Of a DNA stretch of 52,005 nucleotides, positions 27,162 through 49,992 are shown piece after piece (the first letter of the stretch is position 1; each line of letters begins with the position of its first letter). The notes below the pieces were generated by a model. The model ran no database searches, was not told where the DNA came from, and saw only the letters and a program-made list of their open reading frames with translations. This DNA is from a virus: positions 1-52,005 of IMG/VR virus record IMGVR_UViG_3300009080_000014. One strand, given 5' to 3'. A program made the translations under genes and the position numbers.

Positions 27162-27283
27162 GTATAGGAAACTATAAAGGGCAAGGAAAGAAAAAGAGAC
27201 CAGGAGTCCATGCAAAAACAAAAAACTCCAATTCAAAAGGTTCTAAATTTTATGCTAAAACCTATAAAGGACAAGGAAAATGA
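27146..27283 (+). CDS. Tiny basic protein with NYKGQG/TYKGQG ends, 45 aa
   Basis: ATG at 27146 opens a frame that closes with TGA at 27281-27283, overlapping the next ATG (ATGA). The product begins MARVLSIGNYKGQGKKKRPG and ends with KTYKGQGK, so the YKGQG element occurs near both ends. It is very basic (Lys/Arg-rich), with no Cys or hydrophobic core, so it probably binds nucleic acid or is packaged in the head. The tight overlaps on both sides and the compact lysine-rich sequence support a real gene. Confidence 0.8.
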   Translation: MARVLSIGNYKGQGKKKRPGVHAKTKNSNSKGSKFYAKTYKGQGK

Positions 27284-43135: not shown

Positions 43136-43432
43136 ATGAATAACTTTGATTTAAGAAAATTTTTAAAAGAAAATAGAGATACTAAATCTACTAAACTTTT
43201 AAGTGAAGTAGAATTTACTAAAAAAGAAATTATTAATTCTGTTACTTTTCCAACCGGAGATGTATATACAGTAGGAGAATACTCTAACTACGACGGTATG
43301 AGAATAGCTACTATCACACCAGTCCCAGAAAATGAGAGAGAAGCGGATGAAGTAGTAGCTATCGAAATGAGAGATGGAGATAATGCAGTTGTATATAAAT
43401 TTAACGCTGAAGGAAAAGAAGTAGAATACTAA
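43136..43432 (+). CDS. Tag-family protein 1, 98 aa
   Basis: Starts MNNFDLRKFLKENRDTKSTK, with L-K-E at 10-12 and a second site (LLSE) at about 22-25. After the tag comes a small beta-rich domain (SVTFPTGDVYTVGEYSNYDG, EVVAIEMRDGDNAVVYKFN). It is the first of four tag-family genes. If the tag is cut, a cargo of about 70-75 residues would remain. No family known for the cargo domain. Confidence 0.75.
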   Translation: MNNFDLRKFLKENRDTKSTKLLSEVEFTKKEIINSVTFPTGDVYTVGEYSNYDGMRIATITPVPENEREADEVVAIEMRDGDNAVVYKFNAEGKEVEY

Positions 43433-43451: not shown

Positions 43452-44132
43452 ATGAATAACTTTGATTTAAGAAAATTTTTAACTGAAAATAAACTTACTC
43501 CTAATAGTAAGTTAGTTAAAGAAAATCACCTAGGTATAGATATTGCAGGAGCAACACCTCAACAGATAGGGTTGATTAGATGGGAACATGAAGTGTACGG
43601 CAGAGGATTTCCCACGCCATCCTCAAAAGGTCCATATGATAAACAATTCTATGCTGATGAAATTATGAAGCTAAACTCAGAAGAAGAAGTACGGGATTAC
43701 TACAAATATAAAAGAAAAGAATCACACGTTAAAAAAATTGGTCACACAGGAACAAGGGATTTAGTAAAAGATGAAAATGGAGAAGTAAAAATTTTCGATG
43801 GATTAGACAACTATGGTGATCGTTTGTGGATTACACGAGCTGTTAAAGCTTGGATAAAAGCAGGTAAACCAGTAAAACCTGTCCCACAACCAGAGACTGG
43901 AGATCCGAAATACTTAAAAGTAGCTAAAAAGTTAACCGATATGTATAAGTCTACACCTCAAGGAAGAAAAATTATAATGGGGACTAGGCCTTTTAGAAAA
44001 GACGGTACTGATGATGTCCAAGCACTTATTCTTTCCGCAGATCAATACTTAGAGTATTTCGAAGAAAGAGGAGATGAAGATGGAGTTGAAATAGCTAATT
44101 ACTTTCTTAACTCTTTAGGAGATTTAGATTAA
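43452..44132 (+). CDS. Tag-family protein 2, 226 aa
   Basis: Starts MNNFDLRKFLTENKLTPNSK, with L-T-E at 10-12 and LVKE near 21-24. The cargo is a charged alpha/beta domain (EHEVYGRGFPTPSSKGPYDK, WITRAVKAWIKAGKP). The C-terminus is helical and acidic (QYLEYFEERGDEDG). It has no enzyme motif. The leader repeat (AAATACAATGAATAAC) is nearly the same as the previous gene's. It probably shares the destination of the other tag-family proteins. Confidence 0.75.
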   Translation: MNNFDLRKFLTENKLTPNSKLVKENHLGIDIAGATPQQIGLIRWEHEVYGRGFPTPSSKGPYDKQFYADEIMKLNSEEEVRDYYKYKRKESHVKKIGHTGTRDLVKDENGEVKIFDGLDNYGDRLWITRAVKAWIKAGKPVKPVPQPETGDPKYLKVAKKLTDMYKSTPQGRKIIMGTRPFRKDGTDDVQALILSADQYLEYFEERGDEDGVEIANYFLNSLGDLD

Positions 44133-44159: not shown

Positions 44160-44633
44160 ATGAATGACTTTAATTTAAGAAAATTCTTAACAGAAAAAAA
44201 ATTAACTACTAACAGTAAGTTAATCGTAGAAAACCCAATTTCAACGGAGCAGGGTGTATTAAACACAACAGCATCTGCTGAAACTCTTAAAGGTATTATT
44301 TACCAATTATTAGATGACGGACATATACAACCAGAAACAGCTGATGATTTACTAAATGCTGTTTCAAACTCTCCTTCAGATAACGTATACGAAATAGATG
44401 CTGATCTTTTAAAAAGAGCTCAAAATACTCCTGCACCAAAAGATGCAGCTGAAAAATTAGCTCAACGTAAGAAAGAACAAGACGGTGTACTTAGAGTAAG
44501 TATGGGAGAAAATGCTGAACAGGAGCAAAAAGTTATTGATATTGCTAGAGATGCAATCGCACTTATGGATGAGCAACCAGGAACTAGCGCTATAGATGCT
44601 CTTCAGACAGTAATCGAGTTTAAAGAGGATTAA
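44160..44633 (+). CDS. Tag-family protein 3, 157 aa
   Basis: Starts MNDFNLRKFLTEKKLTTNSK, with L-T-E at 10-12 and LIVE at 21-24. The cargo is helical and acidic (TAETLKGIIYQLLDDG-like, then KDAAEKLAQRKKEQDGVLRV, then ALMDEQPGTSAIDALQTVIE). No enzyme motif. Its stop TAA directly precedes an 18-codon ORF (44634). A packaged head protein is the working hypothesis. Confidence 0.75.
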   Translation: MNDFNLRKFLTEKKLTTNSKLIVENPISTEQGVLNTTASAETLKGIIYQLLDDGHIQPETADDLLNAVSNSPSDNVYEIDADLLKRAQNTPAPKDAAEKLAQRKKEQDGVLRVSMGENAEQEQKVIDIARDAIALMDEQPGTSAIDALQTVIEFKED

Positions 44634-44690
44634 ATGAACCTTATAGATAGAGTCATATTAGAGGATTACATCGAAGAAAACGGTTTATAA
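44634..44690 (+). CDS. 18-residue ORF consisting almost only of the N-terminal tag
   Basis: MNLIDRVILEDYIEENGL: the first ten residues equal those of the protein starting at 45034, and 20 bases are identical (44643-44662 and 45043-45062). The ATG is the base after the upstream stop, and the stop is followed by a TAA microsatellite. It is either the relic of a deleted gene whose tag remains or a small functional peptide. Translation is not shown. The tag match is what makes it more than chance. Confidence 0.45.
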   Translation: MNLIDRVILEDYIEENGL

Positions 44691-44706
44691 TAATAATAAT
44701 AATAAG

Positions 44707-45024
44707 ATGAAAGACAACTTTAACTTAAGAAAATTCTTAATAGAAAATAAACTTACACAAAACAGTCGAGCGTTAAAAGAAGAAGTAGACTACTCAATAG
44801 AACTTCTAGTTCCTGAAGTAGCATTTGACGTAGAATCAGGAGAGATGTCAGATTCCCCTTATGAGTTTGCTACAGAAGATGAAATAGAAAGCGGTGAAGC
44901 AGATGTTACAACTTATACAGATGGTGATGAATTAGATGAGTGGGTTTTTGGTCGAAGTTATGAACAGGCCTTACATTTTGCTAAAGAATACCCACACTTA
45001 ATAAAAATTAACACTCGTCAATAA
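44707..45024 (+). CDS. Tag-family protein 4, 105 aa
   Basis: Starts MKDNFNLRKFLIENKLTQNS, with L-I-E at 11-13 and LKE at about 23-25. The cargo is small, strongly acidic (SGEMSDSPYEFATEDEIESG) and ends in a helix (FAKEYPHLIKINTRQ). It follows a (TAA)n run at about 44688-44705. The most divergent of the four tags, which suggests an older duplication. Confidence 0.7.
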   Translation: MKDNFNLRKFLIENKLTQNSRALKEEVDYSIELLVPEVAFDVESGEMSDSPYEFATEDEIESGEADVTTYTDGDELDEWVFGRSYEQALHFAKEYPHLIKINTRQ

Positions 45025-45033
45025 CCATCTCAG

Positions 45034-46497
45034 ATGAATTTAATAGATAGAGTCATATTAGAATGGTCATATAAAACCAAAAAAGGATATCCTGACATTA
45101 ACAGTCAAGAGGATATGGCTTTGTTTGAATCTTTATTTGGTTTTAACTTAAATGAACTTACAGTAGATCCTCTCTACCAGAGTAAAGGAGTATTCAATCC
45201 TTTTTATGAAATAGAACCTACCGTAGATAAGCAAGTTAGAGACATTTTAAATGATAAGAATATTACATTTAGTAATATAATTTACAGAGCAGTAGATAAA
45301 GCAGAAAATGAACCTATACTGTCAACAAGAGGCACACAAGTATTTGAATTATATACAGATCTAGAAACTCCCTTAAATATTTTTATTAAAATCTCTAAAG
45401 ACAAGGCGATAAAACACTATGGTCAAAAAACTCGTAAAGATTCAACCGCATCCTCTAATGTAAATGAATTTTTATCTTTATACTTTTTAATACATCCTGA
45501 ATTTAGTAGTGTTGAAGATATAAAGGATAAACAAGGAGGAACTGGAGTGCTAACTGGAGATGGAAATGAAGTAAGTTATTCTCAATTAATAGAGTTGTTA
45601 GAAAAAGATGAATCTGCTAAAAGAGACATATCTATTGGGTATAAAAATGCAATTGCACTTAAAAGTGATTTAAACGGTAAATCTTATAAAAAGCTATACT
45701 GGACACCAAGAGCTAAACCAGCAAATATAAACCCTAAAAACCCATCTGATATTATTCTAGAATTAGAGGATGGAAATTTTATAGGGTACTCAAATAAAAT
45801 TGCTTCAGGAGAAGATAAAACACCTAAATTTAATACTAATATTATAGCATTCTTTTCTGAATTAGGAGGTTCCCAACCTGAAGATATTAAAGCTCTTATA
45901 GATAATGCATGGGATAAGGCAACTAATGGAGTTCCTACATCTGCATCTAATGCTAAAAAAGCAATTAGTGATTTTGATATTAGAAAAGAAGGATTTTCAG
46001 AAACAACAAGCCGAAGAGCATTTGCTAATTTAGCAATTCAATTTCAACTAGATGATTTAGATTTTTTCAAAGAAGATTTCTACTACCCATTTAGAAATAA
46101 CTTAATAACCTCTTTTTCTAAGTATTTAGAATCCCCAGTAAATTTAAAATACTTTTTAAATACTATAAGTGTTATTACTTACGGAACTCAAAGTATAGGT
46201 GAAACTCCTTGTCCCTATAAATTATTAGTAGGTTCTGGAAATTCGGAATCCACAATTAAAGAAGTATCTGAGAATAAAGCCTTGAGAGATGTGGTGAATG
46301 TTGATTCTATTGAAGATATAAAAAGTATACAAAACAGTTATAATGGAAGTTCACAATCCTTTACTGTTAATTACCAATTAAGTATAGGAAGTGAAATAAA
46401 AAACATAACTATACCGGTAACTGTAAGAACTAGATCAGCAGGAGGATGGAGCGGTAAAAACCCTTTCATATCATCTTCTGGAGTTAAAATAAGTTAG
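45034..46497 (+). CDS. Candidate restriction-endonuclease-fold protein with capsid-tag-like start, 487 aa
   Basis: Starts MNLIDRVILEWSYK (I-L-E at 8-10). An NEFLSLYFL helix at about 143-151 is followed much later by NPKNPSDIILELEDGNFIGYSNK (about 231-253), which fits the core of a PD-(D/E)XK-like fold: Asp, then a strand with Ser-x-Lys (YSNK), the acid replaced by Ser as in some families. The C-terminus is beta-rich (GSEIKNITIPVTVRTRS). It is a candidate packaged DNase; the fold needs testing. It precedes the terminase gene by two bases. Confidence 0.5.
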   Translation: MNLIDRVILEWSYKTKKGYPDINSQEDMALFESLFGFNLNELTVDPLYQSKGVFNPFYEIEPTVDKQVRDILNDKNITFSNIIYRAVDKAENEPILSTRGTQVFELYTDLETPLNIFIKISKDKAIKHYGQKTRKDSTASSNVNEFLSLYFLIHPEFSSVEDIKDKQGGTGVLTGDGNEVSYSQLIELLEKDESAKRDISIGYKNAIALKSDLNGKSYKKLYWTPRAKPANINPKNPSDIILELEDGNFIGYSNKIASGEDKTPKFNTNIIAFFSELGGSQPEDIKALIDNAWDKATNGVPTSASNAKKAISDFDIRKEGFSETTSRRAFANLAIQFQLDDLDFFKEDFYYPFRNNLITSFSKYLESPVNLKYFLNTISVITYGTQSIGETPCPYKLLVGSGNSESTIKEVSENKALRDVVNVDSIEDIKSIQNSYNGSSQSFTVNYQLSIGSEIKNITIPVTVRTRSAGGWSGKNPFISSSGVKIS

Positions 46498-46499
46498 TT

Positions 46500-48074
46500 A
46501 TGGCAAAAGATATAAAAAAAATAATAGCACAAGAGTACTTTAAGTGTGCTAAAGATCCGGCGTACTTTATGAAGAAGTACTGCTATATACAGCATCCTAC
46601 TAGAGGACGTATACTATTTAATTTATATCCATTTCAAGATAAAGTATTACATTTATTTAGAGATCATCAATACTTAATTACTCTTAAATCAAGACAGTTA
46701 GGTATATCCACTTTAGCTGCAGGTTACTCTCTGTGGCTTATGTTGTTTCATAAGGATAAGAACGTACTTGCTCTAGCAACAACTCAAGCTACTGCAAGAA
46801 ACTTAGTATCTAAGACTATGTTTATGTATGATCAACTACCTAAATGGTTAAGATTACCAGCAGTAGAAAAAAATAAATTATCACTTAGACTAAAGAATGG
46901 ATCGAAAATTACAGCTAAATCTTCTAACGCCGATGCCGCAAGGTCAGAGGCAGTATCACTACTGCTTATCGATGAAGCAGCCTTTATTGATAACATTCAA
47001 GAAACGTTTACAGCAGCACAACAAACCTTAGCAACAGGTGGACAGTGTATGGCATTATCAACTCCTAACGGAATTGGTAACTGGTTCCATCAAACATGGG
47101 AAAAAGCAGAAAGCGCAGAAAATAGCTTTGTACCTATTAAATTACCATGGACAGTACATCCAGAAAGAAACCAAGAATGGAGAGACCAACAAGACTCAGA
47201 CCTTGGTCCTAGAATGGCTGGACAGGAATGTGATTGTGACTTCTTAGCTTCTGGAGATACGGTATTTGAACCAGATGACATGATGTTTTATGAACAAACA
47301 TACTTAAAGGATCCTTTAGAGAGGAGAGGTGTTGACGGTAATTTATGGATTTGGGAAGGAGTTGATTACTCTAAATCATATATGGTTGTAGCAGATGTAG
47401 CTCGAGGAGACTCTGCAGATTATTCTGCATTCCACGTATTTGATGTAGAAACCTGTACTCAAGTTGGTGAATATAAAGGTAAGTTATCTCCTAAAGATTT
47501 TGGAAATGTACTAGTAGGAATAGCAACAGAATACAATCAGGCATTATTAGTAGTAGAAAACGCAAACATTGGTTGGGCTACAATAGAACAAATAATGGAA
47601 CGTCAATACTCAAATCTATACTATAGTACTACATCTCAAATGGAAACTGTAGAATCATATATGAGCAAATTTGAAAGAGATAAACTAGTCCCAGGCTTTA
47701 CTATGTCTGTTAGAACTAGACCTTTAGTAATTGCTAAGATGATTGAATACATAAGAGAAAGAGGTGTTACCATACAGTCTAAGAGGCTATTAGGAGAGAT
47801 GAGAGTATTTGTATGGAAGAATGGAAAACCACAAGCACAGATAAATTATAACGATGATTTACTTATTTCAGCAGCAACAGCGTTATATGTAAGAGATACT
47901 GCTTTAAGGCTAAGACAACAAGGTATGGACCTAGCACGAGCACAATTATCATCTTTTAGTAACCTTAACTCAAGAAACAAAGCAATCATAAATACAGTTG
48001 GAAACCAGCAAAATAATCCGTATATTGTAGATAACGGACGTACTCAAGAAGATATTTCCTGGTTATTAAAATAG
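46500..48074 (+). CDS. Large terminase subunit, gp17-like
   Basis: The ATPase has a deviant Walker A (LKSRQLGIST, Lys63 placed before rather than inside the loop), a Walker B LLLIDEA with Asp158/Glu159 and a coupling motif ALSTPN at 185-190. The nuclease has VVADVARGDSADYSAF (Asp299), LLVVENANIG (Glu353) and NYNDDLLISA (Asp452/453). The 524 residues are close to T4 gp17 (610). It packages DNA through the portal and cuts headful ends. The portal gene follows at 48100 after a late-type motif. The start ATG directly follows the upstream gene. Confidence 0.9.
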   Translation: MAKDIKKIIAQEYFKCAKDPAYFMKKYCYIQHPTRGRILFNLYPFQDKVLHLFRDHQYLITLKSRQLGISTLAAGYSLWLMLFHKDKNVLALATTQATARNLVSKTMFMYDQLPKWLRLPAVEKNKLSLRLKNGSKITAKSSNADAARSEAVSLLLIDEAAFIDNIQETFTAAQQTLATGGQCMALSTPNGIGNWFHQTWEKAESAENSFVPIKLPWTVHPERNQEWRDQQDSDLGPRMAGQECDCDFLASGDTVFEPDDMMFYEQTYLKDPLERRGVDGNLWIWEGVDYSKSYMVVADVARGDSADYSAFHVFDVETCTQVGEYKGKLSPKDFGNVLVGIATEYNQALLVVENANIGWATIEQIMERQYSNLYYSTTSQMETVESYMSKFERDKLVPGFTMSVRTRPLVIAKMIEYIRERGVTIQSKRLLGEMRVFVWKNGKPQAQINYNDDLLISAATALYVRDTALRLRQQGMDLARAQLSSFSNLNSRNKAIINTVGNQQNNPYIVDNGRTQEDISWLLK

Positions 48075-48099: not shown

Positions 48100-49992
48100 A
48101 TGGCAGATAAATCGCTATTTGGACGTTTACAACGGCTATTCTCTACAGATGTAGTAATACGGAATGTTGGAGGAACACAGCTGAAAGTTGTAGACACAAA
48201 TAATATACAGACCACAGGTAAGTACCAGACTAATTCCCTTACGGATAGGCTCTCTAGGTTATATACCTATAATAAAGCAAATATATTTAACCCTAATTTA
48301 AATTATCAGACGTTAAGGGTACAGTTATATTCTGATTATGAAGCTATGGATACTGATCCAATTATAGCATCTGCACTTGATATTATTGCTGATGAAGCAA
48401 CAGTAAAGAATGATCAAAACGAAATACTGGGTATTAAATCTACAGACGAAAATATACAGAGAGTTCTTTATAACTTATTTTACGATGTATTAAATATAGA
48501 ATTTAACCTTTGGTCATGGACTAGAAATATGGTTAAATATGGAGACTTCTTTTTGAAATTAGAAATAGCAGAAAAGTACGGAGTCTATAATGTCCTACCT
48601 TATACCGTCTACCACATTGCTAGACACGAAGGCCATGATCCAGATAATCCTCAAAAAGTAGAATTTGAATTAGATCCTGACGGTATAACTTCTTCAACAG
48701 ATAATTCTTATGCTCCTGGAGGTCCAAACAAAAAGAGTAGGAACATAAAAATAGACAATTACGAAATGGCACACTTCAGATTAATTTCTGATACTCATTA
48801 CCTACCTTACGGTAGATCTTATCTAGAGCCAGCTAGAAAAATATTTAAACAAACATCTCTAATGGAAGATGCAATGTTGATTCATAGAATCATGAGAGCA
48901 CCGGAAAAGAGAATGTTTTATATTAATGTAGGTTCTATTCCTCCTAATGAAGTTGAGCAGTTTATGCAAAAAACTATTAATGGAATGAAAAAAACTCCTT
49001 ATGTTGATCCTCAAACCGGTCAATATAACTTGAAGTTTAATATGCAAAATATGATGGAAGATTTTTATCTTCCTGTTAGAGGCGGGGATACTGCTACTAA
49101 AATAGAAACTACTAAAGGTTTAGAGTACGACGGTACAAACGATGTACAGTATCTACAATCTAAATTATTTGCAGCATTAAAAATACCTAAAGCATACTTT
49201 GGATACGAAGGTGATTTATCAGGAAAAGCTACTTTAGCAGCAGAAGATATTAGATTTGCCAGAACTGTAGAACGTATCCAGAGAATAATGGAATCAGAAT
49301 TAACTAAGATTGCATTAGTTCACCTCTACACTCAAGGCTTCCAGGGAGAAAGTTTAACTAATTTTGAAATTAAGTTAACTACACCTTCTATTATATTTGA
49401 ACAGGAAAAAGTAGCTCTAATGAAAGAGAAGATAGATTTAGCTGCTCAAATGAAAGATTCTAAATTATTTTCTACTGATTATATTTACGAAAATATATTT
49501 GATATGTCTGAAGATAGGTACATGGAAATGAGAGACCTAATGGTTGAAGATGAAAAACGTAAATTTAGAAGAAACCAAATAGAAAACGAAGGAAATGACC
49601 CAGCTTCATCTGGAGTTACATACGGTACACCTCATGATTTAGCATCTATGTACGGTAGGAGAGCAACATCAACTCCAAAAGGAGGTGATCAAACTAACAT
49701 ACCAACAGGTTACTCAGAATGGGGACAGCCAGGCCCTGAAGGTGGAAGACCAAAAGAAAAGGCATCGGTATACGGAACTACAGCAGGACTAGGAGGTAGA
49801 GATCCTTTAGGTACACATGGTTTAAAAGGAGGCTACCCTAGCGACGGAGAAAATGTTAACGAAAATACTATAGCAAAGAATATTTTAGCTAAAAATGAAG
49901 ATTTGTTAAAGAAGATAGTATTTACAAAAAATAGTGACGAGGACAGAGAAGGGCTACTAAACGAAGATCAAATTAGAGATTTAGGTAAGTAG
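48100..49992 (+). CDS. Portal protein, gp20-like
   Basis: A 630-residue protein (T4 gp20 is 524). Signature stretches are LYSDYEAMDTDPIIASALDI, then FNLWSWTRNMVKYGDFFLKL, YLPYGRSYLEPARKIFKQ, EDAMLIHRIMRAPEKRMFY, and VQYLQSKLFAALKIPKAYFG. Next comes the helical stem and crown. About 130 extra C-terminal residues are Gly/Pro/Asn-rich and end in a helix with LLNEDQIRDLG, an L-N-E site that could be trimmed. The dodecameric ring is the DNA entry point and the seed for head assembly. Adjacency to terminase supports the call. Confidence 0.9.
   Translation: MADKSLFGRLQRLFSTDVVIRNVGGTQLKVVDTNNIQTTGKYQTNSLTDRLSRLYTYNKANIFNPNLNYQTLRVQLYSDYEAMDTDPIIASALDIIADEATVKNDQNEILGIKSTDENIQRVLYNLFYDVLNIEFNLWSWTRNMVKYGDFFLKLEIAEKYGVYNVLPYTVYHIARHEGHDPDNPQKVEFELDPDGITSSTDNSYAPGGPNKKSRNIKIDNYEMAHFRLISDTHYLPYGRSYLEPARKIFKQTSLMEDAMLIHRIMRAPEKRMFYINVGSIPPNEVEQFMQKTINGMKKTPYVDPQTGQYNLKFNMQNMMEDFYLPVRGGDTATKIETTKGLEYDGTNDVQYLQSKLFAALKIPKAYFGYEGDLSGKATLAAEDIRFARTVERIQRIMESELTKIALVHLYTQGFQGESLTNFEIKLTTPSIIFEQEKVALMKEKIDLAAQMKDSKLFSTDYIYENIFDMSEDRYMEMRDLMVEDEKRKFRRNQIENEGNDPASSGVTYGTPHDLASMYGRRATSTPKGGDQTNIPTGYSEWGQPGPEGGRPKEKASVYGTTAGLGGRDPLGTHGLKGGYPSDGENVNENTIAKNILAKNEDLLKKIVFTKNSDEDREGLLNEDQIRDLGK

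Follow-up and report, generated by a model that had tools for sequence, protein, structure and literature searches.

The 18-codon ORF at positions 44634..44690 (+ strand) of the window, i.e. of the whole stretch of 52,005 nucleotides analysed here, is a chimera in which MNLIDRVILE, the start of one tagged phage gene, runs into DYIEENGL, the end of another. It is best explained as a recombination scar, and the tags of the surrounding genes most likely work as T4-like capsid-targeting propeptides; we put the probability of this explanation as a whole at roughly 0.83.

The short ORF and its neighbours

The sequence record to which the window belongs is that of a T4-like phage, identified as such by the genes for a T4-type terminase large subunit (46500..48074; + strand, as for all features given here) and a gp20-type portal protein (48100..49992). 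Among isolates, Flavobacterium phage immuto is the closest. Upstream of the terminase lie three genes whose products carry an N-terminal tag that we call tag A (98 aa, 43136..43432; 226 aa, 43452..44132; 157 aa, 44160..44633, a mosaic of two relatives), followed by the 18-codon ORF, a tag A gene for an acidic 105-aa protein (net charge −15; 44707..45024) and a gene for a 487-aa protein that begins with another tag, tag B (45034..46497; residues 1–41 form the constant tag ending in LNE, the remainder belongs to cargo class 6). A (TAA)n run occupies 44687..44705, between the stop codon of the short ORF and the next ATG; TAA-triplet runs between a stop and a tag A ATG are also present, in varying copy numbers, in the related loci L022, L048, L054 and L035.

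The short ORF starts with the ATG at 44634, ends with the stop codon at 44688–44690 and encodes MNLIDRVILEDYIEENGL (18 aa); the 487-aa ORF begins with MNLIDRVILEWSYK at 45034. The first-pass annotation had reported that the two share their first ten residues, MNLIDRVILE, and 20 identical bases (44643–44662 and 45043–45062, ATAGATAGAGTCATATTAGA), and both observations were reproduced from the coordinates. Its remark that the rest differs holds insofar as nothing past residue 10 resembles tag B, which, together with the (TAA)n run and the 105-aa gene downstream of the ORF, also led us to reject a frameshifted full-length tag gene, but the last 11 residues are not random: relatives have another gene that ends in exactly ILEDYIEENGL. 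Scanning the window in all six frames located the tag start in these two copies only, and chance similarity between them was rejected, as a degenerate tag pattern had 0 matches in 100 shuffles. Tandem duplication of the neighbouring tag was dismissed, too. Codons 2 and 3 differ synonymously (AAC CTT in the 18-codon ORF, AAT TTA in the 487-aa ORF), and the AAC CTT allele is found, as an exact match, in the full tag B genes of two relatives, L110 and L121, so the short copy is no duplicate of its 487-aa neighbour's tag start.

Two parents and a nine-base joint

With the 487-aa protein and the terminase as queries, viral contigs yielded >100 loci. The joint was mapped by a per-base search for exact matches. 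The longest match ending at 44662 reaches back to 44633 (30 bp) and lies in L110, where it opens a long tagged gene of the ordinary kind. The longest match starting at 44654 runs to 44693 (40 bp) and lies in L001, where it is the end of another gene, with ILEDYIEENGL and the stop codon closing a 73-aa protein; in the window, 44654..44693 (..SILEDYIEENGL stop) is the retained 3′ end of this recipient gene. The two parental pieces join in frame across the nine-base overlap CATATTAGA (44654..44662), which is common to both parents and contains the crossover.

The arrangements of the relatives mirror this division. In L001, L056 and L058, the right parent closes the 73-aa tag A protein (..MDEQPGTSAHIALQSILEDYIEENGL stop) and the tag B gene follows, and in L057 a (TAA)n run, the 105-aa gene and tag B come after a near-identical tail, which is the order of the window. 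In L022, L006 and L035, a tag A gene similar to the C-terminal half of the 157-aa gene of the window leads via TAA or TAATAA straight into the ATG of tag B. The window thus has the arrangement of the latter three up to 44662 and that of L057 from 44654 onwards.

A patch of foreign sequence of roughly 0.25 kb (44385..44662) ends on its right within the 18-codon ORF; it resembles donors of the L006/L022/L143 type and comprises the 157-aa gene's C-terminal half and stop codon as well as the first 29 bp of the donor tag B. Within the 157-aa protein (44160–44633), the middle matches L148 (92% DNA identity) and the C-terminal half matches L006, L022 and L143–146. The left edge of the patch is uncertain, at ~44385–44427, where similarity shifts from L148 (92%) to the donor type (73–80%). 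This last value also counts against a scar, as donor-side relatives are only 73–80% identical beyond the tag and the exact donor is not among them.

In relatives, a tag B gene composed of a ~41-residue tag and variable cargo is situated just 5′ of the terminase, often with one or more tag A genes upstream. A fragment of a donor type, in which a tag A gene is followed by TAA-ATG and the tag B gene, would then have replaced part of a recipient type with a tag A gene ending in ILEDYIEENGL, the 105-aa gene and a tag B gene. The right crossover would have taken place at CATATTAGA, which occurs by chance both in tag B codons 7–10 and near the end of the recipient tag A gene, thereby placing the donor tag start in frame with the final codons of the recipient gene and leaving the recipient tag B gene intact 343 bp downstream. 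We infer the order of these events, and likewise that the phage's own recombination was probably the enzyme involved. A random joint would share at least nine bases with a probability of 9e-5, so this short identity probably guided the crossover; the existence of the match calls for no particular explanation, since nine-base words common to stretches of comparable size are not rare (3%). An in-frame fusion has a one-in-three chance, but it may have been selected.

The same joint would result from a deletion inside one genome carrying two tag B genes, if the ends had been joined between two copies of CATATTAGA with loss of the first tag B cargo and the greater part of the tag A gene after it. 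Cargo loss at this site had already been suggested by the first-pass annotation, which had also proposed a comparison with relatives. However, a single tag B gene, with no second tag B start, is present at each of the 110 loci with a complete gene and in each of four long relatives searched over their entire length. A one-genome deletion is therefore improbable, and the idea of lost cargo gives way to the start of a donor tag gene joined to the unrelated end of a recipient gene.

The sequences of both parents and the joint were observed directly, as was the absence of the joint from other contigs: a degenerate-pattern search of 2.9 million viral contigs found it nowhere else. It is thus known from one contig, and the 18-mer is without conservation in relatives. 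A single contig is also what a chimera from amplification or assembly of metagenomic DNA would give, yet the parents share just 9 bp at the joint, below usual assembly overlaps, and the surrounding mosaicism is seen again in many independent contigs, making such an artefact very unlikely. With regard to the product, translation of the 18-mer is possible because the start site of the ORF keeps the native TAA-ATG layout, and this intact start together with the in-frame fusion could suit a functional micro-peptide, i.e. a free tag that would compete for, or saturate, binding to the core or the prohead protease; in T4 IPIII, the first ten residues suffice for targeting (PMC9026906). The confinement of the ORF to one contig and the origin of its second half as a relic of another gene's end make this reading barely credible, and the earlier suggestion that the bare tag matters in itself was not borne out. 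As a recombination scar, the 18-mer is probably without function rather than a working gene.

Tags, cargo and exchange

Tag B is wider than ten residues: residues 1 to ~41 (MNLIDRVILEWSYKTKKGYPDINSQEDMALFESMFGFNLNE) are conserved before different bodies, at loci adjoining the terminase of T4-like flavophages. The 110 loci with a complete tag B gene yield 62 distinct proteins, and clustering of the part past residue 45 gave nine cargo classes, or ten with immuto. These classes are not all independent folds, since profile comparison detected weak partial similarity between classes 0–2, 3–4, 3–8 and 2–8. The motif [LIVA]xE closes the conserved tag in all 62 distinct proteins, with the E at residue 41, 42 or 43; from a random start in the cargo, it is met over an equal distance in 8% of cases. 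A further site (ILE or similar) is located at residue 10. Searches of Pfam, PHROGs, PDB sequences and PADLOC assigned no function to the 487-aa protein's cargo, the middle of which matches PHROG 2496 (unknown function), and one matching cyanophage protein has no tag.

Tag A, with the consensus MxNNFDLRKFLTENKLTxNSxLxxE (short form FDLRKFLTENKLT..LxE), is present on 56 distinct proteins, all of which have a site near residue 10, with another between residues 17 and 34 in 48 of them. In L098 and L102, a tag A gene lies directly 5′ of the prohead protease gene, whose family is Peptidase_S77 (E 5e-34, in the relative L123); the window's last ORF ends short of that gene's place. In L133 (4549–5550, immuto26A_194), an annotated cob(I)alamin adenosyltransferase carries tag A and, judging from this N-terminus, may be packaged in the head.

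Beyond the two tags, [LIV]xE follows a short hydrophobic N-terminus (e.g. MKLSTIILE or MKLTRILIGE) in the window proteins at 27280, 27614, 30364, 34290, 36657, 37063, 42050 and 50876. The motif is found at residues 8–16 in 19 of 56 window proteins vs a background of 13.5% (P ~8e-5, tagged proteins counted), and the proteins with such N-termini may be further candidates for head targeting.

The tag also appears as an island of similarity between phages. Three pairs of loci (L052/L048, L044/L048 and L013/L020) share 111 bp of tag DNA at 99% identity, with ~35% identity, near background, in the flanks (40 bp upstream, 200 bp downstream) and terminase identities of 77%, 79% and 85%, respectively. 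This pattern fits homologous exchange using tag DNA, and among phages whose terminases are 98–99% identical at the DNA level, 17 of 132 pairs (redundant contigs included) differ in cargo class. The first-pass annotation had proposed that tags are exchanged by recombination at this spot. The locus does recombine, and tag DNA forms islands between phages, but the exchange that made the 18-codon ORF missed the tag and used a chance identity of 9 bp near the end of the neighbouring gene; the ORF represents a related event misplaced relative to the tag.

Probable head targeting and its meaning

T4 internal proteins are described as basic, and T4 Alt, which is targeted too, is large. The internal proteins have only their targeting sequence in common, which is removed by gp21 (PMC9026906, PMC3012670, PMC5694885). 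Based on sequence and gene position, tags A and B probably work in the same manner: they would bring diverse cargo into the prohead core, where a gp21-type protease would cut after [LIVA]-x-E. At the level of motifs and gene positions, the parallel with the T4 internal proteins appears close. As in IPI, IPII and IPIII, a short common N-terminus is carried by otherwise unrelated proteins, the tag ends in an (I/L)xE-type motif (a predicted site here), a protease of the same family is encoded in the head gene cluster and cargo differs between close relatives. Unlike in T4, there are two unrelated tags, tag B is a single copy of ~41 aa fixed 5′ of the terminase in most relatives, and the cargo is not small and basic: tag A cargo is mostly acidic (median net charge −10), which counts against targeting, and tag B proteins have cargo with a median charge of 0 and total lengths of 349–509 aa. 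In Pfam and PHROGs, the tagged proteins had no match to T4 internal proteins.

A second likeness is to gp53 and gp54 of SPN3US and the long propeptides of giant phages, in which an identical N-terminal leader with xxE sites stands on diverged proteins and one propeptide has several cut sites (PMC5694885), as predicted here. However, gp53 and gp54 are two paralogues, and the cargo classes described here are mostly unrelated. Immuto (MW353175, Immutovirus) likewise carries tag B on one gene and tag A on four, two of the latter beside the terminase; it differs from the window in its order B-A-A-terminase, its single tag B start and a tag B that is 37% identical.

Alternatively, the tags could be N-terminal docking parts of another kind, e.g. 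for a tail or host complex, that are never cleaved, which would be compatible with the scar. The ~41 aa of tag B exceed the 10–20 aa of T4 capsid-targeting tags (PMC5694885), and the other two tag A genes of immuto are near replication genes, away from head genes. Nevertheless, in all cargo classes the protease motif closes the conserved part, and most tagged genes adjoin terminase, portal and protease, so we consider docking unlikely and favour capsid targeting.

Our broader proposal is a tentative one, if quite conceivable: marine T4-like flavophages may possess two unrelated families of cleavable head-targeting tags, with tag DNA serving as homology for cargo swaps and tag B as a universal pre-terminase socket for injected effectors or anti-defence proteins that can replace one another, and the 18-codon ORF would be the fossil of one misregistered swap. 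In T4, internal proteins block the restriction enzymes of the host, and across related phages their cargo is very diverse (PMC12373910, PMC3012670). While the 18-codon ORF is of little importance as a gene, as the scar of one botched swap it reveals cassette exchange and misjoining at base resolution. If the tags do the job of T4 internal proteins, they would provide a simple sequence handle on many injected, possibly anti-defence, proteins of uncultured marine phages.
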